Assembly (NCBI GenBank): GCA_028687935.1
Contig: JAQTZE010000004.1
Coordinates: 67,875-131,874, forward strand
Direction of reading: 5' to 3'
DNA: 64,000 bases
Origin: Sulfurimonas sp.
Lineage (GTDB): Bacteria > Campylobacterota > Campylobacteria > Campylobacterales > Sulfurimonadaceae
This document shows positions 1-64,000 of this stretch, one piece after another (position 1 is the stretch's first letter; every line of letters begins with the position of its first letter). The position numbers and the translations under genes are program-made. The notes under the pieces were generated by a model. The model searched no databases and was not told the origin of the DNA. It was given only the letters and a program-made list of their open reading frames with translations.

Positions 1-837
1 CCTATTCGCTATTACTTTAAGCAAGGCATCTCCAATGTCATGTCCTAAGGTGTCATTGATATTTTTAAAATTGTTCAAATCCAAAAAGAGCAATGCAAAT
101 TTATTTTTATGTCTCTTGGAATTGGCTGTTATATATTGGAGTTTGTCATAAAGATTTTGACGGTTTGCAAGCCCTGTAAGTGAATCATACATAGAAGAGT
201 AGAGAAGTTTTTCGTTGAGGCCGACTACTTCTCTCTCTGTTTTGTGCAACTCGATACTATGCTCAACCTGAAGTTGCACCATATACGCGAGAACAAACAT
301 CTCTGCAATGACAAATATAGCATGAAGGATGACAATATCTAAGCCACAACCATAGTTGAAGATCATAACCGGCATATCAAAGAGTGAAACTTCATAGTAT
401 TGTAGATAGTTGAAAATGAGGTGATGAGCTATTGTGGTCATTGCAGCGACAATAATGGGCAGGGTGTCTTTATAGAGCGACAAAATAGCCATAGCGATAA
501 AGATATGAAAGTGCATCTCTATTCTGCCTAGATGCTGTTGGATATATATGAGAGAGAAGAGCATCATCACAATAGCCACTAAAGCACGCATACTTGGAGT
601 CCCGGCTAAGTATTTGTATGCGATAAGCAAAGAGAGTGTTAAAACGCCACCACTTACAAATCCATAAATATAGGTGTTATACATCATAGACGTGACAAAA
701 GTGGCTATAAACCATTGGATCATAGCGAGCATGATCATTACTTTATCTGAGTTTTCAAAATAATGTCTAAAGTTATCTCGTGTAAATTCAGGGACTTGTT
801 TGTAGCTAAAAGGTTCTAAAAAGTTAAATGTTTTCAT
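1..837 (-). CDS. Membrane-bound diguanylate cyclase (GGDEF), 3' part outside window
   Basis: This gene is absent from the ORF track because it has no stop inside the window. Its ATG at 837 overlaps the SCO gene stop (ATGA), and 279 codons are readable. The first ~190 residues are hydrophobic with several membrane helices and a stretch rich in His (EMHFHIFIAMAIL, TIAHHLIFNYLQ), a pattern known from membrane sensor regions of some chemoreceptors and cyclases. A short helical linker leads to the start of a GGDEF domain (YDSLTGLANRQNLYDKL, then LLFLDLNNFKNINDTLGHDIGD). The window ends before the GGDEF signature, so cyclase activity cannot be confirmed. It is translationally coupled to the SCO and periplasmic sensor genes upstream, suggesting that the three act as one signalling unit making c-di-GMP. 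Confidence 0.88.
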   Translation of the reverse strand, partial: MKTFNFLEPFSYKQVPEFTRDNFRHYFENSDKVMIMLAMIQWFIATFVTSMMYNTYIYGFVSGGVLTLSLLIAYKYLAGTPSMRALVAIVMMLFSLIYIQQHLGRIEMHFHIFIAMAILSLYKDTLPIIVAAMTTIAHHLIFNYLQYYEVSLFDMPVMIFNYGCGLDIVILHAIFVIAEMFVLAYMVQLQVEHSIELHKTEREVVGLNEKLLYSSMYDSLTGLANRQNLYDKLQYITANSKRHKNKFALLFLDLNNFKNINDTLGHDIGDALLKVIANR

Positions 838-1400
838 AGAGTATTCTTTATATCCTGTGTAAGTTGGGTTATATTGAGCGGATGCGTTGTGTAGATGCTT
901 TTAAGCACTCTTTTACCCTCGCTCTTTGTTAAAAGGTAGATTGAGTCGGAGTGTGAGAGTTCATTGGCATCCAAAAGACCAGCAGTATAAAAAAGTGAAA
1001 AATTTCGATCTATATCGTAGAGTTCTTTTTTACTCAAATAGAGGCCTTTGAACTTTTGATGAAAAGAGCTTGCAAAAAGCTGGGGTTGATCAGATGTCAC
1101 AGCGGGAAGAAGATTGACAAAAACTACTGCGGTAGAGTCTTGTAGGTCTTGAGTATAAAATGTACTGAGTTCTTGTAGTAAAGGTGTGCAGACATCCACG
1201 CAGCCCACATAGCCGAAAAATAGTACTACATTTTTTTCTTTAATGGCATTGAGAAATGTTGCATCGACTTCCTTGTTGAGTACAATTTTGGAGTTTTCAA
1301 GTGTTGTCGAGCTAAAGAGAATATTTTGCAAAAAGAGAAAAAACAACATAAAAGAGGTGAAAAGTGTGATTGTGAGAAGAACTTTTTTGTTAGCTTGCAT
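834..1400 (-). CDS. SCO1/SenC-family thioredoxin-fold protein
   Basis: A 188-residue protein with an N-terminal membrane anchor (about residues 7-28) and a periplasmic thioredoxin-like domain. The SCO copper-binding signature is visible: C67 and C71 in GCVDVC (CxxxC) and a downstream His at about 150 (ELSHSDSIYLL). SCO proteins usually deliver copper to cytochrome c oxidase CuA or act as thiol-disulfide reductases. Here the gene sits between a periplasmic sensor and a diguanylate cyclase, starting 2 bases after the sensor stop and overlapping the cyclase start. That context points to a redox or copper-sensing role as much as oxidase assembly; this is inference. No cytochrome oxidase genes are nearby. 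Confidence 0.88.
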   Translation of the reverse strand: MQANKKVLLTITLFTSFMLFFLFLQNILFSSTTLENSKIVLNKEVDATFLNAIKEKNVVLFFGYVGCVDVCTPLLQELSTFYTQDLQDSTAVVFVNLLPAVTSDQPQLFASSFHQKFKGLYLSKKELYDIDRNFSLFYTAGLLDANELSHSDSIYLLTKSEGKRVLKSIYTTHPLNITQLTQDIKNTL

Positions 1401-1402
1401 CT

Positions 1403-2926
1403 CTAGGCTTCCAAAGCACTGCGTTTTATCAATCCGATTATTTTTATGTTTCCATTGGATGAGGGTGAATACTTAAAGGAGTTGATAATTGCAGTGGATG
1501 AACTGTCATAGAGAAGAATATTATGTTCCATTTCGATATTGCTTTTGTGTTCTATTGCGTTTTGAATATTTTCTTTGAGGAGATGGTAGTTCTTAGGATG
1601 GATGAGTTCATTGAAAAAGTCATCATAAGAGAGTGTTGCTTTTTCTGCTAGTTTGAGTTGCATCTCTGTTGCGTTTATGACCAAAACTTTTGAGTTCTTT
1701 ATATCGTATTCCCAGTAAATAATCTGAGAGAGTTTTTCTATATTATGTAAAATAGTATCAGTTTTTTCAAATTTCTTTTGGAGTTGTGAAAGATTTCTTT
1801 GTGTATCGATTAACTCTTGTTTTTTCTCTCTGGATATCAAGTATATTAGAGTTGCAAAAGTTAGCGCAAGTATGAGTAAAATAAATAATGCATTTTGTAT
1901 TTCATCTTGATAGCGTATGTAAAAGCTTATATTTTCATGGAGAATAATGGCATTTTTACTTACTTCATCTGGGAGATACAGTTGTACGTCAAGAAGAGCT
2001 TTTCTGCTGAAAATATAGGTGTTTGCTTCTTTTGTACTTGAAGCAATATTTTCTAAAGGGACGTTATGCAGTATCTGGAGCGCTTTTTTAGCAGCTAAAA
2101 CACCTTGTTTTTTTCCATCTGTTGCATAACCGCCTATGACTTTTCCTTGTATATAGGCATCTTCCATGCTCATGATGATAATATTGTTTAATTCACTCAG
2201 TTTATCGATAGAGTTTTGCAGTGTTTGGCTGACACCATCTTGCGTTTTAAAACCGCCTATAGTCGTAAGTAAAACAAAAGATCTTGGCGGGAGTGCTTGA
2301 AGGCTGGATTCGACAGTGTCAAAGAGTTCATTATGAATATAATGAAAATTCATAGTTGGAAAGTTTTTCTCTTGTTTTTTGACATCCTGCTCAATAGCGT
2401 GATATGTTTCAGTCGCATCACCTAGAAAATAGATATCTTTTGTCTGTGGAGAGAAATTCTTGAGTAGTTTGATATTTTTTTCAATTTTTTTGATTTCATA
2501 GACACCTGTGTAACGTCTAACATCAAGCTGCGCTTGTAGATCGAGATCGTTGATCCCTGAAAAGACCACAGGAACATTCAAGAAAAGAGGAATTTCGCTA
2601 TAACGTATGAAATTGAGAGCATTGTCATCTGTGACATAGATAAGATCAGGCGAGCTATGAGCATATTTCATCTGAAGATATTCTCTAAAATTTGCTCCAT
2701 ACTGTGGAGTAAATGCAATACGCTTTGTATCAAGATACTCCGTAGAAATCTCTAAAGGCGCTTTGAAGTTTTCTTGGATGAAATGTACAAAACTTTCATG
2801 TTGTTTTTTGGTCCAGCTATATTCTTGAGAATAAGAATGAATGATAAGAATATTACTTTGTTCGTCTGCTCTTAAAGGGAATAAACATATAAAAAAAACT
2901 AATAAAAACAAAAATGATTTTTTCAT
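1403..2926 (-). CDS. Periplasmic ABC-binding-type sensor with C-terminal PAS domain, no output domain
   Basis: A 507-residue protein. Residues 1-20 are a signal peptide, and 25 to ~315 resemble the ABC substrate-binding sensor family (opening ILIIHSYSQEYSWTKKQ, later VVFSGINDLD and YATDGKKQGVLAA). A membrane helix lies at about 343-365, followed by a coiled coil and a PAS-like domain (about 395-500, with IIYWEYDIKNSKVLVINATE). Related proteins normally end in a histidine kinase or GGDEF domain, but this one stops after PAS. The missing output may be supplied by the diguanylate cyclase two genes downstream in the same operon. A likely promoter lies upstream (TATAAT read on the minus strand near 2950-2955) with a GGGGAG ribosome-binding site. 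Confidence 0.8.
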   Translation of the reverse strand: MKKSFLFLLVFFICLFPLRADEQSNILIIHSYSQEYSWTKKQHESFVHFIQENFKAPLEISTEYLDTKRIAFTPQYGANFREYLQMKYAHSSPDLIYVTDDNALNFIRYSEIPLFLNVPVVFSGINDLDLQAQLDVRRYTGVYEIKKIEKNIKLLKNFSPQTKDIYFLGDATETYHAIEQDVKKQEKNFPTMNFHYIHNELFDTVESSLQALPPRSFVLLTTIGGFKTQDGVSQTLQNSIDKLSELNNIIIMSMEDAYIQGKVIGGYATDGKKQGVLAAKKALQILHNVPLENIASSTKEANTYIFSRKALLDVQLYLPDEVSKNAIILHENISFYIRYQDEIQNALFILLILALTFATLIYLISREKKQELIDTQRNLSQLQKKFEKTDTILHNIEKLSQIIYWEYDIKNSKVLVINATEMQLKLAEKATLSYDDFFNELIHPKNYHLLKENIQNAIEHKSNIEMEHNILLYDSSSTAIINSFKYSPSSNGNIKIIGLIKRSALEA

Positions 2927-2996
2927 CTCAACTCCCCATTTATATGGAGAATTATAGCGTAAGTATATTTAAATAATTAGCTACGTTTTGTTGGCA

Positions 2997-3959
2997 TTAG
3001 AGTAGTTTTTGAATACGAATAAGAGTAGAAAGTAAGATAGCACTTTTGTCTACACTTGAACTTTTCATCTTCAGTTCACTCTCAAGAAGCAAGTCATGAA
3101 GTTTATAATAAGTTTGTGGTTTAAACTTCAAAGAGAGTGCTGCTTTCTCATCAACGACAAATTTTGGGGCAGGGTAACCTAAGATGTCCATGCCATTCGC
3201 CGCTCCATGGACTCGAATGTAGATGTTAAACATATAAAGCTGTGTCACATAAGATGTAAACGCAGTGAGTATTCGTATTTCATCCTCTCCATGTTCTAGG
3301 ATATTTTCCAAATCATGCAAAAAATCTTTTTTAGCCAAAATTTTCTTAAAAAAATCATCCATGTTAACTTCCGCAAGGCCGTGAACAAGATGATTTATAT
3401 CATTTGTTGTGATGACTTTGTCATAGACTTTCAGCTTATCCAGCTCGTTGCAGGCAAGGGCTACATTACCGTTATGGATATGCAAAAGATGTGCAACCGA
3501 GTATTTGTCAATCTGGACTTTTTTCTCATGAGCGAGTGCCAAAACAATGTTTTGCGCTTCAAAATCTTTAGGATGAAAAAAGCGAACATTCATCACTTTT
3601 TTTGCGTCGTATGCTTTGGCATAGCTTTTGTGATCTTCGCCATAATAGGCATAAATAAAGATATTGTCAGTGTTTTTTTCACAATAGTCAAAAAGGACAT
3701 CAAGCTCTTTTTTGGGTACTTTTTTCTCGCTTTTGATGATAAGAATATTTCTATCACCAAATAAAGAAGCCTGAGAGAGATGCGCTTTTGCAGAGTTGAA
3801 GTCATACTCATTATGATAAAACTTTAAGATGGATGCATCTTCGATATTACTCATCATCTCTGTGTACATATCGATGAGAAAAGAACTCTCTCCATAAAAA
3901 AGCAGAGCATTTGTGATAGCTCTACTTTGTATCTGTTTATCAAACTCGCTTTTGTACAT
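2997..3959 (-). CDS. holA: DNA polymerase III subunit delta
   Basis: This 320-residue protein has the layout of the clamp-loader delta subunit: an N-terminal AAA-like domain (ALLFYGESSFLIDMY, then SLFGDRNILIIKSEKKVPKKEL), a small middle domain (HNGNVALACNELDKLKVY) and a helical C-terminal collar. The subunit opens the beta clamp in the replisome. As is normal for delta, there is no Walker A motif. The start codon overlaps the rnr stop by one base (TAATG), so the two are coupled. The rnr-holA order is, from memory, shared with other Campylobacterota. The identification rests on family layout and this context. Confidence 0.93.
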   Translation of the reverse strand: MYKSEFDKQIQSRAITNALLFYGESSFLIDMYTEMMSNIEDASILKFYHNEYDFNSAKAHLSQASLFGDRNILIIKSEKKVPKKELDVLFDYCEKNTDNIFIYAYYGEDHKSYAKAYDAKKVMNVRFFHPKDFEAQNIVLALAHEKKVQIDKYSVAHLLHIHNGNVALACNELDKLKVYDKVITTNDINHLVHGLAEVNMDDFFKKILAKKDFLHDLENILEHGEDEIRILTAFTSYVTQLYMFNIYIRVHGAANGMDILGYPAPKFVVDEKAALSLKFKPQTYYKLHDLLLESELKMKSSSVDKSAILLSTLIRIQKLL

Positions 3960-5911
3960 TATTCCTCATCTTTTTGTACAATTTTTTCCACCACAACTGC
4001 AAAGATTTTGGCTTTAGCGATATCTACTTTGTCGATGCGTACAATCACGTCTTCAAATAAAAGCACAGGAATAGGTGAAGTGAGGATAAGTCTTGCACCC
4101 ATGATTTCATCGTGTAAGTCTGCTTTGAGATCGGGCTCAGTCCCGCTTATACGCGCTTTGAACTCTTTGCCTAAGTTTCCAGCTGCCCAACGAGCAAATT
4201 TTCTCGCCATAAATTCAACTTCGATAGTGCTCGCTTCGCGCTCTTTTTCACTAATCGCCATTGCAAGGGCTTCGATATTACGCAAAACATACGAGCCTTC
4301 AACGGTATCATTGCTTGCAATTGCTTTGAGAAGTCTGTGTACGATGAGGTCAGAATATCTTCGTATCGGTGAAGTAAAGTGCGTATATTGCTCAAACCCA
4401 AGACCAAAATGTCCTGCGTTTATAGGCGCGTAACGTGCCTGCATCTGTGAGCGAATAATAAGCGTGTCCACTTCAGACTCAAGATCCATTTCAGTCGCTT
4501 GTCTTTGGATATCCGTGATAGTCTCTTTGATAGATTTTTTTATCTCTATAGACATACCGATACCCGCAAGCTCCTGATAAAGGTTTTGGAGTTTCGCTTG
4601 ACTTGGCGGCTCATGTATCCTAAATATCCCTCGCTCAAACTGTTTGGCTGCTTCTTTGTTTGCCAAAAGCATACAGTCTTCTATAAGCGCGTGTGAGGGT
4701 GTCTCCTCTGCAAAGGCAGTAGATTCGAGATTGGAATTTTCATCGATAGTCATCTCAAGTTCTGCGGAACGGAAGTTGTACCCGACTTTAAGACGTTTTT
4801 CTTTGAGTGCATCTGTGACGACTCTGAGTTTTTTCAAAGCAGCAAAGATATTTTTTTCTTCGTCATTTTTGGCTTTGAGCTTGCCCTCAAAAAATGCATC
4901 AATCTCTTCATAGTTAAAACGTCTTTGCGAATGAATAATAGCTTCATAAACGCTAGAACTTGCAACTTCAAGAGTATCCATATCTAGTTTCATCTCAAAG
5001 ACATAAGCGAGTCTGTCTACATGCGCTTGCAATGAACAAAGTGTTTCACTAAGTTGGCGTGGCAGCATTGGGATTGAACGGTGTGGCAGATAGATAGAAA
5101 AACTTCTATAGATTGCCTCATCATCGATGGCACCAAATGGTTTGACATATTCGCTTACATCTGCGATAGCGACATACAAGGTAGTGTTTTTATCATCCCA
5201 ATAGATAGCATCATCAAAATCTTTTGCAGTAACAGGATCGATAGTTGCAAACGCAAGAGAACGCAAATCCTTGCGTTTAGGATATTGTTTTGCATCAACA
5301 GGGCCAAAAGAGGTAGCAATTTGAAGTACATCTTCGCTAAATTCGTCATGCTTGTTAAACTGTGCAAGTACGATTTTTTCATCCACAAGTGGATCGCTCA
5401 TATTGCCAAGTTTTTCTAAGAGAGCATTTTCTTGGTTGTCTATTTTAAAGACATCTCCGACTTCGTAACTTAGAAGTTGTTCTTTGGAAAGTTCAGCACC
5501 GACTGGATAGTCAGTTTTGATATCGACCAAAGATCTGTGTCCATCTTTTTCCAAGATATAGGCGACACTATAACTGACTGCACGTCCTACGATTTGTGCG
5601 ATTTTTGCAGCGGGTGTCCCGCGAACTCCAAGAAGCCGTGCGGCGATAACGAGATCTCCCTCTTTTGCACTTCCTAAATCTCCATCACCTATAAAAAGGT
5701 CACGAACATTTTCTCCGATGACATGCAAATAGGCTGTACCATTTTGTACAAGACCAAGTGTCCCTGCGCGGTATTTAGAGTTAAATTTATATAAAGTATC
5801 TTTTTTTGTAATGTAGTTTTTTGCCAAGAACTCTTTGATATGAGTCATTTCAGCACTGCTGATATCTTGTTCGTGTAGGCCCACTGTGAGCCTAATGAGA
5901 AGTGATTTCAC
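3959..5911 (-). CDS. rnr: Ribonuclease R / VacB family 3'-5' exoribonuclease
   Basis: A 650-residue RNase II/R protein. The catalytic RNB signature is clear: ATIDPVTAKDFDDAIYW holds the metal-binding aspartates, and YTHFTSPIRRYSDLIVHR is the family motif. An OB-type cold-shock region precedes it. The C-terminal ~75 residues are where an S1 domain is expected, but the S1 pattern is weak, giving the compact form seen in Helicobacter and Campylobacter. It degrades structured RNA in the cytoplasm. The start is GTG at 5911 with no strong ribosome-binding site, 6 bases after the HDOD gene stop, so translation probably depends on readthrough from that gene. The next in-frame Met (residue 23) would remove conserved sequence. 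Confidence 0.94.
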   Translation of the reverse strand: MKSLLIRLTVGLHEQDISSAEMTHIKEFLAKNYITKKDTLYKFNSKYRAGTLGLVQNGTAYLHVIGENVRDLFIGDGDLGSAKEGDLVIAARLLGVRGTPAAKIAQIVGRAVSYSVAYILEKDGHRSLVDIKTDYPVGAELSKEQLLSYEVGDVFKIDNQENALLEKLGNMSDPLVDEKIVLAQFNKHDEFSEDVLQIATSFGPVDAKQYPKRKDLRSLAFATIDPVTAKDFDDAIYWDDKNTTLYVAIADVSEYVKPFGAIDDEAIYRSFSIYLPHRSIPMLPRQLSETLCSLQAHVDRLAYVFEMKLDMDTLEVASSSVYEAIIHSQRRFNYEEIDAFFEGKLKAKNDEEKNIFAALKKLRVVTDALKEKRLKVGYNFRSAELEMTIDENSNLESTAFAEETPSHALIEDCMLLANKEAAKQFERGIFRIHEPPSQAKLQNLYQELAGIGMSIEIKKSIKETITDIQRQATEMDLESEVDTLIIRSQMQARYAPINAGHFGLGFEQYTHFTSPIRRYSDLIVHRLLKAIASNDTVEGSYVLRNIEALAMAISEKEREASTIEVEFMARKFARWAAGNLGKEFKARISGTEPDLKADLHDEIMGARLILTSPIPVLLFEDVIVRIDKVDIAKAKIFAVVVEKIVQKDEE

Positions 5912-5917
5912 GGGGAA

Positions 5918-6721
5918 TTATCTCGCGTTTTCGAGGGCTTTGTCGAAGCTTTCCATATCGAGGCCATAGCTTGTGATTAGTTCTTTTGCTTCTTCTACAC
6001 TTTCGTCAGTAATGATACCATTGATAGGAACAGCAACACGTACAACGTGTAAAATTGATGCAGCTCTTTGACTGTCTGGAGTTTTTGCCGCTTGAGGGTT
6101 TTGACAATGTCTAATAACTTCAACAAGCCCATCTTCAAATTTCCATTGCTCAAAGATTGTAGCGCTTACTTCAGGTGTATCTGTACCTACAACAGCTCTC
6201 TCTGCTGTCTCAACATCTTTGAGATCTTTGAGGGCATCACGAAACTCATTTTGTTTGCCATCTGTCATGATCTGTTGCGCAATAAGCACCTTGCCAATTT
6301 CAACAAGAAACGCAGCTGGAGATAAAACACCAAGAAGTTTATTTTCTTTTTTGAGACACCATGCAGTCATAAGTCCATGCTGTTTTTTTGAAAGAATTGA
6401 AAACATGTCGTTAGTGATACCATACGCAGAGAGATCAAGAGAGAAACTTTTTTTGACAATACTCGCAAGGGCAAAACCTCTAACAGTTCCCATTCCAAAA
6501 AGCCCAACAGCTTGAGAGATTGCGTTTATCTCACGTGAGAAGCCATAAAGCGGAGAGTTGGCAGCTTTGAGTATATCAGCAGTCAAGAGAGGATCTTTCT
6601 CGAGTATCTTTACCATATCGTGAAAACTACTATTTGGATTTTGGTAAACAGCCTCTATCTGCATTGCAGATTCAGGAAGCGGTGGCAGTTGCTTGATTTT
6701 TTTAAGGATCTCTTCTGTCAT
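5918..6721 (-). CDS. HDOD domain signalling protein
   Basis: The 267 residues are almost entirely an HDOD domain (LPPLPESAMQIEAVYQNPNSS, DPLLTADILKAANSPLYGF, AISQAVGLFGMGTVRGFAL). HDOD is related to HD phosphohydrolases but lacks their metal-binding residues, so it is thought to bind or scaffold rather than catalyse. It is found in c-di-GMP, chemotaxis and stress signalling proteins. No second domain is attached, so partners must be separate. It is the first gene of the unit HDOD-rnr-holA, with only 6 bases to rnr. Its biological role here is unknown. Confidence 0.88.
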   Translation of the reverse strand: MTEEILKKIKQLPPLPESAMQIEAVYQNPNSSFHDMVKILEKDPLLTADILKAANSPLYGFSREINAISQAVGLFGMGTVRGFALASIVKKSFSLDLSAYGITNDMFSILSKKQHGLMTAWCLKKENKLLGVLSPAAFLVEIGKVLIAQQIMTDGKQNEFRDALKDLKDVETAERAVVGTDTPEVSATIFEQWKFEDGLVEVIRHCQNPQAAKTPDSQRAASILHVVRVAVPINGIITDESVEEAKELITSYGLDMESFDKALENAR

Positions 6722-9029: not shown

Positions 9030-9108
9030 GAGTGAAGCACGGCGCATCGTAAACGCAGCAAATTTTTCAAACTCTTCCCCACTTTAAAACTTCTTTTACA
9101 AGCTTTTT

Positions 9109-9149: not shown

Positions 9150-11363
9150 GTGAGCCAACAACTTCAAGACATCGAAAAACAACTCTCTAACCATAAATTA
9201 TCTCAAGATGATTATACGCATATCAAACAGATTTTAGGTCGTGAGCCTAATTTAGTAGAGCTAGGTATTTTTTCAGCCATGTGGAGTGAGCACTGTTCAT
9301 ACAAGTCTTCAAAAGTACACTTAAAAGGCTTCCCAGTAAGCGCTCCTTGGGTTATTCAAGGTCCAGGTGAAAACGCAGGTGTTATCGATATCGGTGGTGG
9401 TTATGCGGCTGTATTTAAGATGGAATCACACAATCACCCAAGTTTTATTGAGCCGTACCAAGGTGCTGCAACAGGTGTGGGTGGTATCATGCGTGACGTA
9501 TTTACGATGGGTGCGCGTCCTATTGCAAACTTAAACGCACTGCGTTTTGGAAATGTATTAAATGATGACAAAATCTCTGCACACCAACGTTATTTGGTAC
9601 GTGGTGTTGTTGCTGGAATCGGTGGTTATGGTAACTGTATGGGTGTTCCTACTATCGGTGGTGAAACAAGTTTTGATGAGTGTTACAATGGAAATATCCT
9701 TGTAAACGCATTTACTTTGGGTCTTGCAAAATCAGATGAAATCTTCTACGGTCGTGCGGATGGTATCGGCAATCCAGTAATGTACGTAGGTGCAAAAACT
9801 GGTCGTGATGGACTTGGTGGAGCGGTCATGAGCTCTGATAGTTTTACCGAAGAGTCAAAATCTTTGCGTCCAACTGTTCAAGTTGGGGATCCGTTTACGG
9901 AAAAACTTTTGCTTGAAGCGTGTCTTGAACTTTTCAAAACGGATTATGTTGTCGGTATCCAAGATATGGGAGCAGCAGGTCTTACCTCTTCATCTTTTGA
10001 GATGGCTGGACGCTCAGGTAGCGGTATGATCATGCACCTTGACAAAGTTCCTGCGCGTGAGCAAGGAATGACTCCATATGACTTTATGCTCTCAGAGTCT
10101 CAAGAACGTATGCTTTTATGTGCAAAAAAAGGTTCAGAGCAGGCGATCATCGATATCTTTGAAAAATGGGATCTTGATGCTGCTGTGATCGGTGAAGTTA
10201 CAGCGACTGGAAATATGGAACTATTCTGGCACGGAGATAAAGTGGCTGAAGTGCCTGTAAACCCTGTAAGTGAAGAAGCACCTGAGCTTAATCGCCCTAT
10301 GACTCGTCCAGCGTACCTTGACAAAATCGCTCACGTGACTATCAATGATTTTGACAAAGTTTCAAATCAGACTGCGTTTGAGACACTTACAAAGTCTATG
10401 GAAGTTGTAGATAAAGCGTGGATATATACGCAATACGACTCTATGGTGCAAACAAATACAATCAAAAAAGGCGGGATGCTTGACGCGTCTGTTATCCGTA
10501 TCAAAGAAAACGGAAAAGCGCTTGCAATGTCTGCTGATTGTAATGTTCGTTATTGCTACATCGACCCTATGGGCGGCGGTGCTGCGGCTGTTATCGAGTC
10601 AGGCCGTAATGTTGCGATGAGTGGTGCGCGTCCACTTGCTATTACAGATTGTCTAAACTTCGGAAATCCAGAAAATCCTGAAGTTATGTGGCAGTTTGGA
10701 CAAAGCTGTCTTGGTATCAAAGAGGCGTGTGCAGAGCTCACAACCCCGGTTATCGGTGGGAATGTTTCACTTTATAATGAAACAAACGGCGTTTCTGTTT
10801 TCCCAACACCTTCTATCGCAACTGTGGGTGTAAATGACGATCAAAACAATGTGCTCATGTCTAGTTTCCAAAACGCAGGCAATGTTTTGTACCTTGTAGG
10901 CGAGTCAAAATCTGAGTTCGGTGGTTCTTTATATATGAAAGAGATCTGTCATACAGTTGCAGGAATACTTCCAGAGATTGACTACAAAAAAGAGCTTGCT
11001 CTTTGGGACTTAGTCATCGAAGCAAACAAGAAAAATCTACTTGAATGTGCAAAAGATGCAAGCAGCGGCGGTGTGGCTATTGCTTTAGCTAAAATGGCTG
11101 CGACTTCAGGTCTTGGCTGTGATGCAAACATGAATGTTTCAGATGCAAGAGATATCTTCGCAGAGAGCATGAGCCGCGCTATCATCGAAGTCAAACCTGA
11201 GAACTGCGCTGCGTTTGAAGCGATGCTTGGTGATTTGGTATGTGAGCAAATCGGAACAGTTGGTGGAGATTTAATCAAAGTGAATGATGTTACTATGAGT
11301 ATGACTCAGCTACAAGACAACTACTTCAATACTTTCCAAAGAGTTATCGAGAGAGATTTATAA
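9150..11363 (+). CDS. purL: Phosphoribosylformylglycinamidine synthase subunit II
   Basis: A 737-residue small-type PurL that uses ATP and ammonia (from PurQ, with PurS) to make FGAM in purine synthesis. The N-terminal motif [18 protein letters not shown] and the ATP/metal motif [20 protein letters not shown] are intact, and two AIRS-type halves are recognisable ([10 protein letters not shown]; later [12 protein letters not shown]). It starts with GTG at 9150 after TTAGGA. The small type requires separate purS and purQ genes, which are not in the window. purH is nearby but separated by pfkA and an MFS gene. It contains seven copies of the dispersed AAACGCA word in mixed orientation and frame. 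Confidence 0.97.
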
Positions 11364-27074: not shown

Positions 27075-27102
27075 AAACGCAGTAATTATTTTACAAACGC
27101 AG
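27075..27102 (+). repeat. Two intergenic copies of the dispersed AAACGCAG word beside comEA
   Basis: AAACGCAG occurs at 27075-27082 and again at 27095-27102, a direct repeat with 20-base spacing, the second ending at the base before the comEA stop codon. They are the clearest non-coding examples of a word found about 130 times in this window (see findings). Confidence 0.8.
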
Positions 27103-27366: not shown

Positions 27367-27542
27367 GATAAACCTTTGTGTTGAATTTGCAATAGTATAC
27401 ATAAAATATTATAAATTAACAAATAAAGTTTTAATTATTAAAAGTTTTTTTTGTTCTTTTGTGTAAATAATTACAAAAAAAGAGTAGTGCGCTTTTTCGC
27501 AGTAATGAAACGCAGCTAGTATGAAGAACGAATGAATATCCC

Positions 27543-27980
27543 TTACCCACAGCACTTCTTATATTTCTTGCCACTTCCGCAGGGGCAAGCGTCATTTCTT
27601 TGTACTTTTGTATTATAAAGTATTCCGTCTTTATAGCGCCAAAGCCCATCTTCTTGGACAAATTTACTCTCTTCGTGGAGTACTTTAATACCCTCTATAT
27701 CTTTGTAAAAAGCCTTAAACGCAACGATATTATCTTTGGCATAAAGCACGTCAAGGCCTAGCCACTCTACGGAGTTACTAAACTCTTCTATAAGTTCTAT
27801 ATCTTCTGCGTATCTATTTTCTTTTGCTGCGCTGAGTACGAGATATTTGCCATCACCTTTGACGTAGGCACTGTAGCGACTTCGCATGAGCTCCTCTGGT
27901 GTTTTGGCTTCTCTTTTTCCTTCGATTATAGCGCCGCAGCACTCTTGATACTCTTTTTTACTTCCACAAAAACAGTGCAT
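27543..27980 (-). CDS. YchJ-family SEC-C motif protein
   Basis: 145 residues from ATG 27980 (the track adds 15 residues upstream). It has a SEC-C zinc motif at each end, [14 protein letters not shown] and [14 protein letters not shown], around an NTF2-like central domain ([52 protein letters not shown]). This is the YchJ (UPF0225) layout. The SEC-C motif in SecA binds zinc and SecB or ribosomes; YchJ's own role is not established. It diverges from pta with a 48-base gap that must hold both promoters. Confidence 0.9.
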
Positions 27981-28028
27981 AAAAACTCTCTCTTTTTTTT
28001 GATATACTAACACATATAAAGGCAAATC

Positions 28029-32198: not shown

Positions 32199-32267
32199 GT
32201 GCGTTTCTAATCTCTTTTGTAGCCGTTCTTGGATATTATTGCGTATATTATATAAAATAGGAATCCA

Positions 32268-32477
32268 ATGAAATTTGAACTACAAGATGAATATATAGAG
32301 CTTTTTAAACTTTTAAAAGTAATGGACTTAGTTGATAGTGGTGCGCGCGCAAAATATATCGTGGCGGATGGACATGTTAAACGCAACGGTGTGATTGAAG
32401 TGAGAAAAAGAGCGAAGATTATTGCTGGTGATGTGATTGAAGTAGATGATGCAAGAATCGAAGTGGTCGCTTCGTGA
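32268..32477 (+). CDS. S4-domain RNA-binding protein (YbcJ-like)
   Basis: A 69-residue protein consisting of one S4 domain: EYIELFKLLKVMDLVDSGARAKYIVADGHVKRNGVIEVRKRAKIIAGD matches the small YbcJ/RNA-binding S4 family. Basic residues (KRNG, RKRAK) would contact structured RNA, probably rRNA or tRNA. The stop TGA overlaps the GTG start of the next gene, so the two are coupled, although no functional relation is evident. Confidence 0.88.
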   Translation: MKFELQDEYIELFKLLKVMDLVDSGARAKYIVADGHVKRNGVIEVRKRAKIIAGDVIEVDDARIEVVAS

Positions 32478-42608: not shown

Positions 42609-43343
42609 ATGGGTATTAAAAAGATAGATAAAACACCGGCTAGATTGGATTTTCTTCAAAGTTTTACGGGGCTTGTGCTTGCAATCTTTATAATGGGGCA
42701 TATTCTTTTTGAAGCCTCTATACTTATCTCAAACGAGATGATGTATCGTGTGACTATTATGTTTGAGGGATATTACTTTTTTGGTGAGACCTATCCTGGT
42801 ATCATCTCTTTTCTTGCATCTGCAATATTTATCATCTTTATTCTCCATGCCGGGCTTGCTCTAAGAAAGTTTCCAGCATCTTATAAACAGTACAAAACAA
42901 TCAAAGAACATACAAAACGCATGAAACATGAAGATAGTTCTTTATGGATGATACAAGTCATCACTGGCTTCATTATGTTTTTTATAGGCTCGGTGCATTT
43001 GTATATTATGATAGCTCAGCCTTCAAACATCGGTCCATTTGCTAGTTCTAGCAGAGTTGTCGATGAGCTTATGGGACCGCTCTATTTTTTACTTTTACTC
43101 TCTGTGATCTCGCATGCTTTTATCGGTCTGTATCGATTGGCTTTAAAGTGGGGCTTTATGGAAGGTGAAAACACAGAGATTTCACGTAAACGTTTTAAGG
43201 CTTTGATGAAACTCATGATAGCAGCTTATATCATTATAGGTTTGGCCTCTTTGGCGAAATATACTTACATAGGTCTCACGCATGATTTTAGTGACGGAGT
43301 GAAATACAAATCTGAGACAATCAATGTTGGAGAAGACAAATGA
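42609..43343 (+). CDS. frdC: Fumarate reductase / succinate dehydrogenase cytochrome b subunit (di-haem)
   Basis: A 244-residue five-helix subunit very close in layout to Wolinella FrdC. The four haem-ligand histidines align: H31, H80, H130 and H169 (Wolinella 44, 93, 143, 182, a constant offset of 13). Glu53 corresponds to Wolinella Glu66, needed for menaquinol oxidation. However, the position of Glu180 (E-pathway) is Ile167 here, in [18 protein letters not shown]. It anchors the complex and exchanges electrons with menaquinone. The stop overlaps the frdA start (ATGA). Confidence 0.94.
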
Positions 43344-45328
43344 AGATAATCTATACAGATGTTCTCATCATTGGTGGCGGTTTGGCTGGTCTGCGCGTTG
43401 CAACTGGAGTCAAACGCAGAGGTCACGATGCAGTAGTTTTGAGTCTCGTTCCGCCAAAGCGCTCACACTCAGCAGCGGCACAAGGCGGCATGCAAGCCTC
43501 TCTGGCAAATTGTAAAATGGGTGAGGGTGACAACGAAGATGTCCATTTCTCAGACACCATCAAAGGCAGTGACTGGGGAGCTGATCAGCTTGTAGCACGT
43601 ATGTTTGTCCACTGTGCACCAAAAGCGATACGTGAGCTTGCTGCTTGGGGCGTGCCTTGGAGTAGAGTGCACCGTGGAGATCACTCTGCCATTATGAATG
43701 CGCAAAAAGTCACCATCAGTGAAAGAGATGAAGCGCATGGACTTATCACCGCTAGAGATTTTGGCGGTACGAAAAAGTGGAGAACTTGTTATACATCCGA
43801 TGGAACGGGGCATAGTATGCTCTATGCGATGGATAACAAAGCACACGAGGAAGAGGTAGAGATTCACGAGCGTCAAGAGGCGATGTCACTTATCGTGGAT
43901 GATGGAAGGTGTTATGGAGTTGTTTCGAGAAATCTCATGAGCGGTGAGCTTGTAGCCTACGTAGCTAAAGCGACAACGATTGCCACAGGTGGTTATGGAC
44001 GAATTTACAGTATCTCTACAAACGCAATCATTTGCCAAGGAACTGGTCAGGCTTTAGCGCTTGAGAGTGGTATCGCTACACTTGGAAATATGGAAGCGAT
44101 ACAGTTTCATCCGACGGCTATCGTGCCTGTAGGTATCCTCACAACCGAAGGGTGTCGTGGGGATGGTGGGCTTTTACTGGATAAAGATGGTTATAGATTT
44201 ATGCCAGATTATGAGCCAGAAAAAAAGGAGCTTGCAAGTCGTGACGTTGTAAGCCGTAGGATGACAGAACATATGCGCAAAGGCAAAGGTGTCAAAAGCC
44301 GCTATGGAGATCATCTCTGGCTTGATATCACTATCCTTGGACGTGAGCATATAGAGAAAAATCTCAGGGAAGTTAAAGAGATCTGTGAGAACTTTTTGGG
44401 GATTGATCCTGCGGTAAATTGGATACCGGTACGTCCAACACAACACTACTCAATGGGCGGCATACGTACAAAATATACAGGTGAATCGCAAACACTGAGA
44501 GGGCTTTACTCTTGTGGAGAAGCGGCTTGTTGGGATATGCATGGCTTTAATCGTTTGGGTGGAAACTCTGTGAGTGAGACTGTAGTCGCCGGTATGCTCG
44601 TAGCAGAATATATCAGTGATTTTTGTGACTCGAATGAGAGCTCGATGCATATTCACTCTTCTAAGATAGAAAGTAGTATCAAAGAAGAAAAAGCAAAACT
44701 CGAAGCACTTTTGACAAAGCAAAACGGTGAAGACGCCTATGTACTGCGCCGCCGTATGGAAGCTATTATGATGGAAAAGGTGGGGATCTTTAGAAATGAA
44801 AAAGATCTGCAAGAGGCTGTAGATGAGCTTGAAGAACTCTACAAACGCAGTAAAAATATAGAAGTATTTCGCTCAAAAAGTCGCGCTGCAAATCCAGCAC
44901 TTGTAAACGCATACAGAACGCAGAAGATGCTCAAAGTAGCCCTCACAGTTGCTTATGGGGCACTTTTGCGCCAAGAGAGCAGGGGCGCTCACTCAAGAGA
45001 AGATTTCCCAGAACGTGACGATGAAAATTGGCTCAAACGCACAATCACTTCATGGCCAGATGCTAATCAAACGCTACCGAGTGTGAGTTATGAAGAGATT
45101 CCTGTGGAGAGTATGGAGCTGCCTCCAGGCTTTCGAGGTTATGGAAAAGATTTGACAAAGCATCATCATGCGACGCACGCACGAGAGACAACAGTAGCAG
45201 TAATTCGCGAACAGCTTGAGAAAGAGGGCGCTTCGCGTTTTGAGATTCAAAGTGCACTTATGCCATTTTTGGACAAATTGCCTCCAAAATATAGAGGAAC
45301 AAATGAAAGACTTGGAGAAAACGTATGA
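43340..45328 (+). CDS. frdA: Fumarate reductase flavoprotein subunit
   Basis: A 662-residue protein. The N-terminal FAD-binding loop ([21 protein letters not shown]) and the FAD-linking histidine in [16 protein letters not shown] are present. The catalytic region has [21 protein letters not shown] and the conserved HYSMGGIRT and [15 protein letters not shown]. It interconverts fumarate and succinate. In Campylobacterota this enzyme serves fumarate respiration, the oxidative TCA cycle, or the reductive TCA cycle for CO2 fixation; the direction cannot be decided here. It is translationally coupled on both sides. Confidence 0.97.
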
Positions 45329-52940: not shown

Positions 52941-52954
52941 TGCGTTTTGCTCTC

Positions 52955-57747: not shown

Positions 57748-57780
57748 AAATTAAATCTACCTTTAAAGCTCTTTAGTATA

Positions 57781-57805
57781 AAATAAGACAATTTTTGTCT
57801 TATTT
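57781..57805. terminator. Strong terminator after thiC
   Basis: AAATAAGACAA and TTGTCTTATTT form a perfect 11-bp stem with a 3-base loop, 34 bases after the thiC stop. It separates thiC from mrp. Confidence 0.8.
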
Positions 57806-57865
57806 AAATATGATAGAGTACGAAAATTAAATATAAGCACAATTCAATTTAATAAAAGGAATAAA

Positions 57866-59038: not shown

Positions 59039-59104
59039 GTGACGCCACTCTTCCACCCAGCTTCTTTTTATCTACACTCTTTTTAGCTTTAGCACCATCA
59101 TAAA

Positions 59105-59794
59105 TTACTCAAAAACTATATTTCTATTTTCTATCTTCATGATCCTGTCAAAATAGGGAAGAATTCTCTCATCGTGTGTAACCGTAATAATGGCTACATT
59201 TTGTTCTATTGCTATTTTTTTAAGCATGAGGATAACGCTTATTGAGCGTTTTGCATCGAGTGCAGCTGTTGGCTCATCTGCAAGAATAATCTCTGGATTA
59301 TTCGCGAGGGCTCTAGCAATTGCTACTCTTTGGTTTTGCCCACCGGAGAGCTCTGAAGACATACTCTGCGCTTTGTCCGCAATCTCAAGGTATTCAAGTA
59401 GTTCCATTGCTTTTTTTTCAGCATCTTTTTTACTTATTTTATTTGTTAAGGGAAGGAGTGTTATATTTTCTATGACGTTTAAGAAAGGTATAAGATAGTG
59501 CGCCTGAAATATAAAACCAATTTTTTCTCTGCGAATTTTACGAGTGTCTTTGGCAATCCATTTGTTGTTATATACTCTCTCTTCACCAAGCCAAATTTCC
59601 CCACTCGTTGGTTCGAGTACACATCCTATCATCATCAAAAGTGTTGTTTTTCCAGCACCGCTTGGAGCGATGAGTGCGACAAGTTCACCTTTATTTATCT
59701 CAAATGAGGCATTATCTATGACTTTGACTAGATTCTCACCTTTACCGAAATTCTTCACTAAATTTTGAACTTTTATTGCAGACTCTTGATGCAT
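59105..59794 (-). CDS. ABC exporter ATPase (MacB/LolD/DevA-like)
   Basis: 229 residues from ATG 59794, set by GGAGG just upstream; the track's TTG includes that ribosome-binding site. It has Walker A (ALIAPSGAGKTTLLMMIG; note APSGAGKT), the Q-loop (IGFIFQAHYLIPF), signature SELSGGQNQRVAIARAL, and Walker B (EIILADEPTAALD). It energises the FtsX-like permease upstream. The gene order outer channel, adaptor, permease, ATPase describes a complete tripartite ABC exporter. The start is one base after the permease stop. Confidence 0.94.
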   Translation of the reverse strand: MHQESAIKVQNLVKNFGKGENLVKVIDNASFEINKGELVALIAPSGAGKTTLLMMIGCVLEPTSGEIWLGEERVYNNKWIAKDTRKIRREKIGFIFQAHYLIPFLNVIENITLLPLTNKISKKDAEKKAMELLEYLEIADKAQSMSSELSGGQNQRVAIARALANNPEIILADEPTAALDAKRSISVILMLKKIAIEQNVAIITVTHDERILPYFDRIMKIENRNIVFE

Positions 59795-59795
59795 T

Positions 59796-60941
59796 TTAAC
59801 CTCCAATTGCAGACGAAGGATCTGCGTTTATAACTTTTCTAACACCTACAAAGGAGGCTAAGATGGAAGCAATAATAATAACACCAAAGAGCATCCATGC
59901 ATCTGGGATTTCAAGTACGATTCTCTTTGGAAATGTGTCATAGGTGAGATGTGAGAAGATGTTTCCAAATATAAATGCAAAGATACCAAGCAGCAGAGTC
60001 TCTTTGACTATCATTGAGATTATAAGGCTATTTGGCAGTCCCATAAGCTTCATGATGGCTATCTCTTTCATCTTCTCTAGAGTCATAGTGTAGATGATAA
60101 GTGCGATAATTATGGTAGATACTATGACCAATATGGCAGTAAAGAGCCCTATCTGTTTTGAGGATTTTTCTATAAGATTTTTTGTCAAAATCTCTTTTTG
60201 ATCTTTTGCACTATAGACACTTTTATGTTGCCATTTTCTTATCTGGTATGCTACCTCTTCTATGTCATATCCGTTTTTTACTCTTGCGACTATTGCATTT
60301 ACCATGTCGGATTCTGAGTTTTTCACTCCTCTAGCCATAGAGTTTTGAATCTCTTTATTGGAGTATAAAAACTGAAGTTCTTGAGCGTCTTTAAGACTTA
60401 TATACACAAGTGGGTCTCCGCCATTTGAGACTGTATTGTGTGTGATTCCTACAACTGTGTAGCTGTTTCTACCTAATTTGATTTTCTCTCCTAGTGCAAA
60501 GCCTGTTTTATCAGTTACGACGATTTCGTAATGCTCATTTTTCAAAACCCGCCCAGCTACTAATCTAAGTTCGTTGATAGGATTGATTGAGCCATATATA
60601 TCATATCCTACAACTACCACACGGACTGGTTTTTCATGATGAGGAAGTTGGATATTTTGAAAGGTAAGTGCTTCGCTTTTATCTATGCCTTGCATAACGT
60701 AGATAGTTTCTCTCATATCTTTATAGACTCTTGAAGATTCTGCAAAAGGCCCTAGTGTATTCTCTTGCACAATCCACAAATCAGCTTGAATATCATCAAG
60801 AATAATCTCTGCATCAGCCATCATGCCACGATAGACACCAATCATAATAAGAACAATACCAAGCAACATACCAACACCCATTGCAGTAACTAAAAACTTG
60901 CCAAGAGTATGTTTAATATCTTTTGCTGCTAAATCAATCAT
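59796..60941 (-). CDS. FtsX/DevC-type ABC exporter permease
   Basis: A 381-residue protein with four helices: one near the N-terminus (LVTAMGVGMLLGIVLIMIGVYRG), a ~230-residue periplasmic domain, then three at the C-terminus (ILVIVSTIIIALIIYTMTLEKMKEIAIMKLMGLP, the FtsX signature loop). The N-terminal AAKDIKHTLGKFLVTAMGVG and RGMMADAEIILDDIQADLWIVQ are typical of the DevC branch. It works mechanically with the ATPase to push substrate through TolC. The start overlaps the adaptor stop (ATGA). The substrate is unknown; glycolipids, peptides and macrolides are known for relatives. Confidence 0.92.
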   Translation of the reverse strand: MIDLAAKDIKHTLGKFLVTAMGVGMLLGIVLIMIGVYRGMMADAEIILDDIQADLWIVQENTLGPFAESSRVYKDMRETIYVMQGIDKSEALTFQNIQLPHHEKPVRVVVVGYDIYGSINPINELRLVAGRVLKNEHYEIVVTDKTGFALGEKIKLGRNSYTVVGITHNTVSNGGDPLVYISLKDAQELQFLYSNKEIQNSMARGVKNSESDMVNAIVARVKNGYDIEEVAYQIRKWQHKSVYSAKDQKEILTKNLIEKSSKQIGLFTAILVIVSTIIIALIIYTMTLEKMKEIAIMKLMGLPNSLIISMIVKETLLLGIFAFIFGNIFSHLTYDTFPKRIVLEIPDAWMLFGVIIIASILASFVGVRKVINADPSSAIGG

Positions 60942-62083
60942 CTGAAAATCTTCATTCCATCACTGAGGGGTTTTTTATTCGCCTCTAATTCAAGAAGATC
61001 TGCATCTGCGTTTATCCCAGATTTTACTGCAACTTCTTCATCACTTTGCGCTAAAATCTCGAGAGGTTTAAAGAACGCACTCTCCCCTTCAGCTACCCAA
61101 ACACCTCTTTGCTCTTTGTAAGTTCTCAGCAATCCTATAGGGACTTTAATAACATCCTTATAATGCGCAACTTCTAGATTGACCTCTGCTTGTTCATTGA
61201 TATAAAATTTTTCGGGAGTAGTATCAAAGGCAACATTTATCTCTCTTTCAAGAGTCACGGCGTTGCTTATAGCTACAACTCTTTGCAGTGTTGCCAGAAT
61301 CTTTTCGTTTGGTTGAGACCTTAACTTTATAGTCGCTTTAAGTCCAACTTTTAACTCTGAAGCAGCTCTTTCATCAACATTCGCGCGAACCCATAGCGTT
61401 TTTGGATCTACAATCTTAAAAATAGATGAAGATGGCAAAACATAAGAGGCTAGTTCGGCATCTTTAGAGATAATGTAGCCATCAACAGGAGAGTATATTT
61501 TAAATCTTTGGAGCTTTGCGCCTAATGCTTCTATGCTTTTTTTCAGGCGAAACTCTTCAGAGTGAGCAGAACCGATTTTCGCTTTTGAAGAGGCAATTTG
61601 CGCATTGATATTATCCAAGTCACTCTTTGCTTTGTCATACTCTGCTTGAGAGAGAAACTTCTGCTCTAAGAGTTTCTTATATCTCATGTGAGTGGATTCT
61701 ATAACTATTTTTTGCGCTTCAAGCGCTTCTTTACTCTCTTTTGCAGACTTTGCTTCATATCCCGCTTTGGCAAGAGATGACTTGGCTTCATCCACTAAAA
61801 GAGGCATGTCAACAGCATCTATGCTAAGAAGTAAATCGCCTTTTTTTACAGAATCTCCTTCATCAAAAAAAATTTGCTCTATCTTTCCACCACTTTGTGC
61901 TGTAATAGTATAGATATTTTTAGCATCTACATTTCCGATACCACGGATAGTAACTATTAAATCTCCTTTTGTAGGTTTAACAGTTTGGAATGTTGATTTT
62001 ATTACATAAACTTTATTGTAAAAAAAAGCTGCTCCAACTATGATAACAAACCCAGCTATAGTATATTTGAGATAATTATTCAC
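60938..62083 (-). CDS. Membrane fusion (periplasmic adaptor) protein
   Basis: A 381-residue HlyD/MacA-type adaptor. An N-terminal anchor helix (YTIAGFVIIVGAAFFYNKVY) precedes a biotinyl-lipoyl half (GNVDAKNIYTITAQSGGKIEQIFFDEGDSVKKGDLLLSID), a long helical hairpin (~90-175) and the second lipoyl half (LQRFKIYSPVDGYIISKDAELASYV), then beta-barrel domains. It links the permease to the TolC channel. It overlaps the tolC gene by 8 bases, showing tight coupling. Residue pattern and partners favour an ABC rather than RND pump. Confidence 0.94.
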   Translation of the reverse strand: MNNYLKYTIAGFVIIVGAAFFYNKVYVIKSTFQTVKPTKGDLIVTIRGIGNVDAKNIYTITAQSGGKIEQIFFDEGDSVKKGDLLLSIDAVDMPLLVDEAKSSLAKAGYEAKSAKESKEALEAQKIVIESTHMRYKKLLEQKFLSQAEYDKAKSDLDNINAQIASSKAKIGSAHSEEFRLKKSIEALGAKLQRFKIYSPVDGYIISKDAELASYVLPSSSIFKIVDPKTLWVRANVDERAASELKVGLKATIKLRSQPNEKILATLQRVVAISNAVTLEREINVAFDTTPEKFYINEQAEVNLEVAHYKDVIKVPIGLLRTYKEQRGVWVAEGESAFFKPLEILAQSDEEVAVKSGINADADLLELEANKKPLSDGMKIFR

Positions 62084-63326
62084 TCTTTTCTCCTCTTAAA
62101 TATTTTAATCTATCTATGATTTTTCGCAGAGCAAATTTGGATTCTAGTACTCCTAGCGTAGCTTGTAAGTGAAGCGATGAAGCATCTAGAACCTCTATAT
62201 ATGTTGCCAAACCCTCTTTATACCTCGCTTCTACTATAATCTTTGTAGCCAAGGTTGAATCTACAAGTGCTGCTTTTGCTTTACTTGTGTAGTGAAATCG
62301 TTGCAAATCTATAAGAAGATTATCTATCTCTTCTTTGAGTTGCAGTCTTTTTGTGTTGTATGACTCTTTCGCTATCTCTCTATCTATACGAGATATCTGC
62401 TCTAGCGCTGAGATCCTCCCTCCACTGTAGAGGGGAATCTTCACGCCGATTCCAACCATAGAAGCATCATATTCGTTGAGTGAGTTCTGATGTGAATAGC
62501 TTGCAACTGCATCAACAGAGCCATAGTTTTGAGCTATAGCGGCATCATAAAGGAATGAATCTCTCTTGATTTGTTCTTGTGCTGTAGCAAGTGCGTAATT
62601 TTTTCCTATAGCCTCTTCGCTCGTACTATTACAGTCATCTTTTGCTTCCATCACCTCTGTAAGCGCAACGTTCAAATCCACCTCTTCACCCATATATAAG
62701 AAGAGCGTAGTGAGGGCTTTATGTAGTTCTGCTTTAGTTGATCCTCTCGCATCCTCGGCACTATATAAAGCACTGAGCATACTCATCTCATCCGCTTGTG
62801 TCTTTAGTCCTTCTTGAACGAGAGCTACTGCTTGTTTGTATAGTTCCTCTTTGGTTTGATAATCTTTTTCTCTGCTACTAAGCGCTTGAGTTTGAAAGAG
62901 TGCTAGGTTATAGATGTTTTTGATGTTATATGCAAGAAGGGCTTGCGCATCTTTGAGTGAAAGTGAAGCTATTATTTGACTTCTTTCATTCGCTTTTATC
63001 GTTGCGTTTGTTTTTGAGAAATCATATATTTTTTGATTTATTACTCCACCAACTTGCCAATTATCATCTGTTATGGTTTTAAAAGTACCATTTTGTGGCA
63101 TAACGAAAGTGTTATGTGGATTGTAATCTGCACTAAGTGTTACTTGAGGCAAGTAGTCCGCCTTGGCAACATCAACTCCAAAGGCACTCTGCTTTAATCC
63201 TAGGGAGAGCTTTTTAATATCAGGATGATTTTGGAGAGATTTTTCTATGCAGAATTCAAGCGTAAGCGTTTGTGCATTTAAGTTGAGTACAAAAAAAGTG
63301 AAAAAAATAGTGAGAAACTTACTCAT
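62076..63326 (-). CDS. TolC-family outer-membrane efflux channel
   Basis: A 416-residue protein with a signal peptide (MSKFLTIFFTFFVLNLNA) and two OEP repeats of long helices (LTLEFCIEKSLQNHPDIKKLSLGLKQ; GVKIPLYSGGRISALEQISRIDREIAKE). LSADYNPHNTFVMPQNG is in a strand likely to lie in the beta-barrel. It forms the trimeric channel for the exporter encoded by the next three genes. AGGAG precedes the ATG, and a perfect palindrome lies ~85 bases upstream. The whole operon has only three AAACGCA copies in 4.2 kb. Confidence 0.93.
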   Translation of the reverse strand: MSKFLTIFFTFFVLNLNAQTLTLEFCIEKSLQNHPDIKKLSLGLKQSAFGVDVAKADYLPQVTLSADYNPHNTFVMPQNGTFKTITDDNWQVGGVINQKIYDFSKTNATIKANERSQIIASLSLKDAQALLAYNIKNIYNLALFQTQALSSREKDYQTKEELYKQAVALVQEGLKTQADEMSMLSALYSAEDARGSTKAELHKALTTLFLYMGEEVDLNVALTEVMEAKDDCNSTSEEAIGKNYALATAQEQIKRDSFLYDAAIAQNYGSVDAVASYSHQNSLNEYDASMVGIGVKIPLYSGGRISALEQISRIDREIAKESYNTKRLQLKEEIDNLLIDLQRFHYTSKAKAALVDSTLATKIIVEARYKEGLATYIEVLDASSLHLQATLGVLESKFALRKIIDRLKYLRGEKSE

Positions 63327-63407
63327 AAATATATCTCCTATTTACAAAGATGGAGTTGTATTATTACGTATATTTGTTAATTTTATATTAGGAGCGTATA
63401 TAAATAG

Positions 63408-63438
63408 GACACTTTACAGGATTTATCGATAAAGTGTC
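63408..63438. promoter_or_regulatory. Operator-like palindrome upstream of the efflux operon
   Basis: GACACTTTA (63408-63416) and TAAAGTGTC (63430-63438) are perfect 9-base arms with a 13-base spacer. It lies ~82 bases before the tolC-like ATG and separately from the terminator of the neighbouring GGDEF gene. Efflux operons are often repressed through such sites, but no regulator gene is adjacent. Confidence 0.5.
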
Positions 63439-63485
63439 TTATATGAGTTGAAAAAATTAAAAGTATGCTCATATCTTAAAAAGCG

Positions 63486-63511
63486 AAAAATAGAATCGGA
63501 ATTCTATTTTT
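63486..63511 (-). terminator. Terminator of the GGDEF gene
   Basis: AAAAATAGAAT and ATTCTATTTTT form a perfect 11-bp stem with a 4-base loop, starting right after the GGDEF stop and ending in a T-run on the minus strand. Confidence 0.85.
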
Positions 63512-64000
63512 TTATCTGAGATTATTGTTATCAGACATTTGCGCTTCGTATTTCACTATCTTATTTCTGCCGGTAGTTTTTGCTACATAAAGTGCTGTAT
63601 CAGCAAATTTGATACATTTCCAGATAGTGTCTCCATCGGTCGGAAATGTAGAGATGCCTATACTCATAGTCTTTTGCATAGTCTCTCCATTGCCTACTTC
63701 AAAAATGAGATTCGCAAAGGCAGAGTGAATTTTTTTAGCAACATTAAGAGTGCCTTCTTCACTTGCATTGTAGAGCAGAACAACGAACTCTTCGCCTCCA
63801 TAACGTATTGCGAGATCCGCTTCACGGATACAATCATGTAAAACTTTTCCTATTTCAACGATGACTTTATCGCCTACATCGTGTCCATAAGTATCATTGA
63901 CTTTTTTGAAGTAGTCAACATCGAGCATTAGTATGCTGTAGGTCTCATTGGAACGTTTTGCCTGAGACATAAATTGATCGATAAATTCTTCTAAAAATCT
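63512..64000 (-). CDS. GGDEF protein, 5' part outside window
   Basis: The track starts at Met 63970, but the frame stays open to the window end and encodes RFLEEFIDQF before it, which fits the normal GGDEF opening (NRRFLEE...). So this is the C-terminal part of a larger protein. It has ILMLDVDYFKKVNDTYGHDVGD, the intact active site IRYGGEEF, and READ five residues earlier as I-site, then SIGISTFPTDGD. It should be an active, feedback-inhibited diguanylate cyclase. Sensory domains lie outside the window. The last residues (AQMSDNNNLR) follow the domain directly. Confidence 0.93.
   Translation of the reverse strand, partial: RFLEEFIDQFMSQAKRSNETYSILMLDVDYFKKVNDTYGHDVGDKVIVEIGKVLHDCIREADLAIRYGGEEFVVLLYNASEEGTLNVAKKIHSAFANLIFEVGNGETMQKTMSIGISTFPTDGDTIWKCIKFADTALYVAKTTGRNKIVKYEAQMSDNNNLR

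Follow-up and report, generated by a model that had tools for sequence, protein, structure and literature searches.

Introduction

A short word, AAACGCA, recurs so often in one stretch of a Sulfurimonas genome that its presence there demands an explanation. The stretch is 64,000 nucleotides long and lies on contig C41 of a 2.58 Mb genome designated G000 (G000:C41:67875-131874); it is called the window throughout. An earlier interpretation of these letters and their open reading frames (ORFs), the sequence-only reading, had proposed that AAACGCAR (R being A or G) is a candidate DNA uptake sequence, naming a methylation or restriction site and a nucleoid-protein site as alternatives. To our knowledge, words by which bacteria take up the DNA of their own species are so far known in two bacterial families only. 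Here we ask what this word is, through its abundance, placement, anatomy, conservation and distribution among relatives. Judged on sequence evidence, AAACGCAR is probably a DNA uptake sequence of Sulfurimonas, that is, a tag for sequence-specific recognition in natural transformation.

Results

Abundance of the word

AAACGCA and its complement TGCGTTT together occur 138 times in the window, compared to 11.3 ± 3.4 copies (maximum 24) after dinucleotide shuffling and 25.2 copies under a third-order Markov model, by which the word ranks first among all 7-mers (z = 22.5). The huge excess first claimed from a count of about 130 copies against about eight expected is therefore upheld, with GC content, then estimated by eye at about 38%, corrected to 38.7%. 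AAACGCAG ranks first among the window 8-mers, with 65 copies observed and 5.9 expected. The copies are dispersed, at 2.2 per kb in the window and about 1.6 per kb in the genome, where AAACGCAR occurs 4,199 times compared to 463 for a reversed-word control; its two orientations, thought beforehand to be roughly balanced, number 2137 and 2062. A scan of all 7- and 8-mers over 463 kb of genomic sequence ranked AAACGCAG (447 copies, 42 expected) and AAACGCAA (353 copies, 60 expected) highest.

Placement relative to genes and strands

Codon or dipeptide preference does not account for the excess. Shuffling synonymous codons within genes reduces 911 coding words to 147, and all six word/gene frames are enriched 3.6–7.7 times above this expectation, with two frames holding 69% of coding copies; confinement to a single frame, against which the sequence-only reading had argued, is thus refuted, as is a count within the Markov range, the other outcome that it had named as fatal to its claim. 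The side-by-side pair that it had cited within purL is real. Across 503 kb of the genome the density of the word is 1.96 per kb within coding sequence and 1.76 per kb outside it, which agrees with the similarity of density proposed earlier, although the supporting figure of about nine copies in 3.3 kb of non-coding window DNA becomes eight in 6.1 kb by the ORF list. Between leading and lagging strands, as assigned by GC skew, words are divided 469:470. The sites and genes concerned are as follows.

9051-9057, plus strand: word outside called genes, upstream of purL
9150-11363: purL, identified in the window
9533-9539, plus strand, and 9541-9547, minus strand: word pair inside purL, in opposite orientation and different codon frames
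27075-27101, plus strand: two words outside called genes, at 27075 and 27095
27508-27514, plus strand: word outside called genes
27717-27723, plus strand: word outside called genes, overlapped by a 160-aa minus-strand ORF at 27543-28025
32200-32206, minus strand: word in an intergenic gap
32379-32385, plus strand: word in an intergenic gap
43340-45328, plus strand: frdA-like gene, the query for finding relatives
52941-52947, minus strand: word in an intergenic gap

Anatomy of the site

Aligned genome sites give the consensus hAAACGCARc, with graded edges. The base before the word is G in 62 of 884 sites, compared to about 172 expected from base composition, and a purine follows AAACGCA directly in 122 of the 138 window copies, bearing out the earlier remark that G or A mostly stands there. 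C is favoured at +8, after R, and farther out nothing comparable is seen except codon periodicity. A longer dispersed repeat was considered as the source of the word and rejected, since conservation of the flanks ends about one base upstream and two bases downstream. These graded flanks (-1, +7 and +8) look more like the binding preference of a protein than a fixed enzyme site. The word is also asymmetric, and so lacks the palindromic structure of words of the HIP1 (highly iterated palindrome) type.

Retention in relatives

The protein encoded by frdA is 94–95% identical in STC_122 and GWF2_37_8, two metagenome-assembled Sulfurimonas, and the relatives' loci L009 and L017 have 1.91 words per kb around the frdA-like gene. 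When orthologous sites were compared, as the sequence-only reading had envisaged, the word proved to be preferentially conserved: G016, GWF2_37_8 and STC_122, at about 82% DNA identity, keep 62–77% of the G000 words in place, compared to 25–32% for control 7-mers of equal composition, a control that is not matched for codon phase and is raised by 7-mers overlapping the word itself. Retention reaches 72% in G057 (80% identity) and 8 of 17 words in G104 (72% identity), where the control stands at 16%. G043 and G046, both of which abound in another word, TACATGTA, retain none of 29 and none of 31 G000 words respectively.

A Tn7-like island that lacks the excess

A 17 kb Tn7-like island on contig C8 of G000 (176.3–193.6 kb; L111, L112) contains 2 words where 24–34 would be expected, and this single island is the basis for saying that the word is scarce in recently acquired foreign DNA. 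Its count equals its own codon-shuffle expectation (observed/expected 1.2), compared to a ratio of 6.2 elsewhere. The island has 30% GC and encodes TnsA-like, TniB and TniQ proteins together with a cargo of DndB-like, PAPS-reductase and DUF4007 genes, which is probably a DNA-modification defence. It adjoins an mnmG-like gene.

Dialects across the genus and order

We surveyed 135 genomes of the genus Sulfurimonas, mostly draft or metagenome assemblies, and sampled 299 genomes across the order; outside G000, words were discovered in 7–120 kb per genome and followed by whole-genome pattern counts, and dialect labels were set by count thresholds picked by eye. AAACGC-type words, recognised by an excess of AAACGCAR, occur in about 32 of the 135 genomes, with control levels in most others. 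Seven genomes have 267–487 copies of CTCACGCAG, an eighth has 33 and the rest have at most 16, while TACATGTA reaches 440–848 copies in thirteen genomes and a smaller excess in about seventeen more. The three carrier sets are nearly mutually exclusive. Within the AAACGC group there are variants, a strict (T)AAACGCAG in G104, G138, G065 and G010, and AAACGC[CG]A in G009 and G019.

On a FastTree phylogeny of five genes adjoining comEC, the word types follow the tree, requiring 10 changes compared to a mean of 27.5 (minimum 21) with shuffled labels. One CTCACGCAG clade and one TACATGTAA clade are nested among AAACGCAG carriers. AAACGCAG and CTCACGCAG have six consecutive letters in common, ACGCAG, and a clear common core exists between these two only. 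The notion that CTCACGCAG sites are overwritten AAACGCAG sites was examined and found mostly not to hold, with about one site in common.

In the order-wide sample of 299 genomes, enrichment of AAACGCAR is confined to this genus. TACATGTA also abounds in a second family, f20 (G153, G184, G296, G315 and others), with 840–1,727 copies in the majority of genomes from genus g25 and several sister genera, compared to 24–74 for the control. Part of this excess may be HIP1-like.

Competence genes

ComEC is encoded in 123 of the 135 genomes, DprA in all eight genomes examined, including an intact copy in G000, and a cluster on contig C39 of G000 comprises a GspD-type secretin, a T2SSE ATPase, a T2SSF platform protein and a T2SSG pseudopilin. 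Two pilin genes lie near comEC, one of them hypervariable (L123 15086-15490). The N-terminus of the latter is near-identical throughout the genus, while even sister genomes diverge in its C-terminal domain. The recognition protein of the Neisseriaceae DNA uptake sequence (DUS), which has eight dialects, is the minor pilin ComP (PMC3630211); searches of PDB sequences with the Sulfurimonas pilins returned general type IV pilin matches only, and none of the named matches is ComP. By the type of pilin beside comEC, G000 and G069 belong together and G057 and G016 have another. All four carry AAACGCAR, and unrelated pilins occur in sister genomes that use one word.

Other repeated words

A second word, CATGAGC, is in excess among the closest relatives of G000 (L009, L017, L124, L131; 69 coding copies compared to 13 after codon shuffling), but only about twofold in G000 itself. 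In another Sulfurimonas clade (L188-L192, L140 from G136, L236, L240, L242) a word based on AGATGC is enriched (AGCATCTA, TAGCATCTA). Longer repeats of about 10–20 copies each were seen at L193-L197 (G005) and L241 (G099), namely parts of GCAAACCCC and ACAAAGGGGTCTTA, and CGGAACCC and AAGTACCG; these are possibly dispersed repeats or clustered regularly interspaced short palindromic repeats (CRISPR). Whole-genome counts of AAACGCAR in G054, a CTCACGCAG genome, are uneven, at 150 on the forward and 69 on the reverse strand, perhaps through a tandem repeat.

Discussion

We favour the uptake sequence because the word behaves as do those of Neisseriaceae and Pasteurellaceae: it is dispersed, occurs in all frames without strand bias, is scarce in the island and persists at its sites in relatives, and its dialects accord with the phylogeny. 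The proposal made in the sequence-only reading therefore stands as the best fit to these features and to the competence genes, with the function itself put forward as an inference. By this account, a surface or pilus-tip protein would bind h-AAACGCA-R in extracellular DNA, and DNA so tagged, hence that of kin, would be pulled in by the pilin, secretin and ATPase machine, ComEC and DprA, genes for which are present. Tagged fragments would recombine into the chromosome more often than others, such that copies arise and persist except in recent foreign DNA, which is the pattern observed. Where the specificity of the recognition protein shifted in a lineage, a new word would come to replace the old, giving rise to AAACGCAR, (T)AAACGCAG, AAACGC[CG]A, CTCACGCAG and possibly TACATGTA.

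Several observations weigh against this interpretation. ComEC is also encoded by genomes without any clear word, and the hypervariable pilin beside comEC, considered as the receptor that sets the dialect, does not track the words. Our search of the open-access literature turned up no account of natural transformation in Sulfurimonas. Among the weaker carriers (G104, G138, G065, G010 and G009), non-coding DNA has few words, and terminator-like inverted arrangements of two words are not markedly favoured. Palindromic TACATGTA may be a different phenomenon from AAACGCAR. A halo of decayed words might also be expected if mutation were opposed by uptake bias, and among one-letter variants in the 463 kb an excess is limited to AAACGCGA (71 against 19), AAACGCGG (25 against 11) and AAACGCCA (63 against 30), with all others matching expectation or falling short of it, although the Markov expectation for one-mismatch neighbours is inflated by the word itself and the result is not conclusive.

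Among the alternatives, the word might be the target of a methyltransferase, orphan or part of a restriction system, kept for marking or protection or as a methylation-dependent uptake mark. There is precedent in HIP1, a hugely over-represented word found alongside orphan methyltransferases (PMC4390886), and in Campylobacter jejuni, of the same phylum, which takes up only RAATTY-methylated DNA (PMC10046745); genes resembling Type IIG and Type III methyltransferases are present in many of the surveyed genomes. Nevertheless, in the two Pfam families searched, PF07669 and PF01555, the presence of a methyltransferase does not go with that of the word: a single weak, short match per family is seen in carrier G102 and no PF01555 in carrier G010, whereas non-carrier G012 has five PF07669 matches. 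This, together with the graded flanks, weakens the methylation or restriction alternative of the sequence-only reading, which we consider unlikely. Binding by a genome-wide chromosomal protein, acting in nucleoid structure, segregation or repair and changing specificity by lineage, would agree with the uniform spread of words over all the contigs sampled and with the near-equality of coding and non-coding densities. The sharp replacement of dialects between close relatives would however oblige a core chromosomal protein to switch specificity repeatedly, and scarcity in the new island is compatible with such a protein without favouring it over uptake; we regard this explanation as quite unlikely. 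A recombination hotspot like Chi, or another oriented motif of replication or segregation, is very improbable. Chi sites are short, asymmetric and over-represented in genomes, and established Chi and KOPS (FtsK-orienting polar sequence) motifs are strand-biased. Chi is one class of high-frequency oligomer (PMC4390886), yet the even division of AAACGCAR between leading and lagging strands disfavours a motif of this kind.

A further alternative concerns the extent of the dialect series. TACATGTA could be a separate, HIP1-like palindrome, leaving only the AAACGC and CTCACGCAG words as one series. Its palindromic form, with a symmetric extension TTACATGTAA in L026, agrees with this, as do its massive numbers (up to 1,727 copies) in a second family of the same order and its best alignment with TAAACGCAG, which matches at 6 of 9 positions with a chance probability of about 0.05. 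However, hardly any of the 135 genomes combines TACATGTA with AAACGCAR or CTCACGCAG, the TACATGTAA clade branches from among the AAACGCAG carriers, and the form in G043 is partly asymmetric, ACATGTAG. We consider separate status for TACATGTA a serious possibility, at somewhat less than even chance.

Taking AAACGCAR as an uptake sequence, we tentatively suggest a larger picture: a third, independently evolved uptake-sequence system in Campylobacterota, with at least three near-exclusive dialects in Sulfurimonas (AAACGC-type, CTCACGCAG and TACATGTA), the last extending to a second family. In such a system, repeated shifts of receptor specificity might have rewritten thousands of sites throughout whole genomes and would isolate gene flow between close relatives. 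The open-access papers searched describe no uptake-sequence system for this phylum; none of them couples an uptake sequence to Sulfurimonas or Sulfurospirillum, and no paper of relevance prints the words themselves. If true, a third system from another phylum would let the origin, spread, switching and species-isolating effect of such words be tested independently, and its dialects, present in dozens of genomes, would permit a search for the receptor by co-variation. It would also present a contrast to the methylation-based choice of DNA by C. jejuni.

Comparison with known systems

The cyanobacterial HIP1 word, GCGATCGC, resembles AAACGCAR in the extreme over-representation of an octamer (PMC4390886), but HIP1 is palindromic and hardly varies among cyanobacteria, whereas AAACGCAR is asymmetric and has dialects; TACATGTA is closer to HIP1 than AAACGCAR is. 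RAATTY uptake in C. jejuni belongs to the same phylum and employs an uptake machine resembling a type II secretion system or type IV pilus, although what is read there is the methylation of a short, degenerate motif (PMC10046745), whereas in Sulfurimonas the sequence itself is strongly over-represented. The uptake signal sequences of Pasteurellaceae, AAGTGCGGT and ACAAGCGGT, are likewise dispersed, asymmetric words in coding DNA with at least two clade dialects (PMC12616744); they differ in word and phylum, and no AT-rich extended flank comparable to theirs is seen around AAACGCAR. The Neisseriaceae DUS has a core of 10–12 letters compared to eight here, an unrelated sequence and a different phylum; it differs also in that Sulfurimonas words have no clear preference for inverted pairs, a receptor that is hypothetical, and a core common to dialects that is clear only for AAACGCAG and CTCACGCAG. 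The two nevertheless agree in having thousands of dispersed copies, dialects that follow phylogeny and competence genes, and the density in Sulfurimonas falls within the Neisseriaceae range (PMC3630211).

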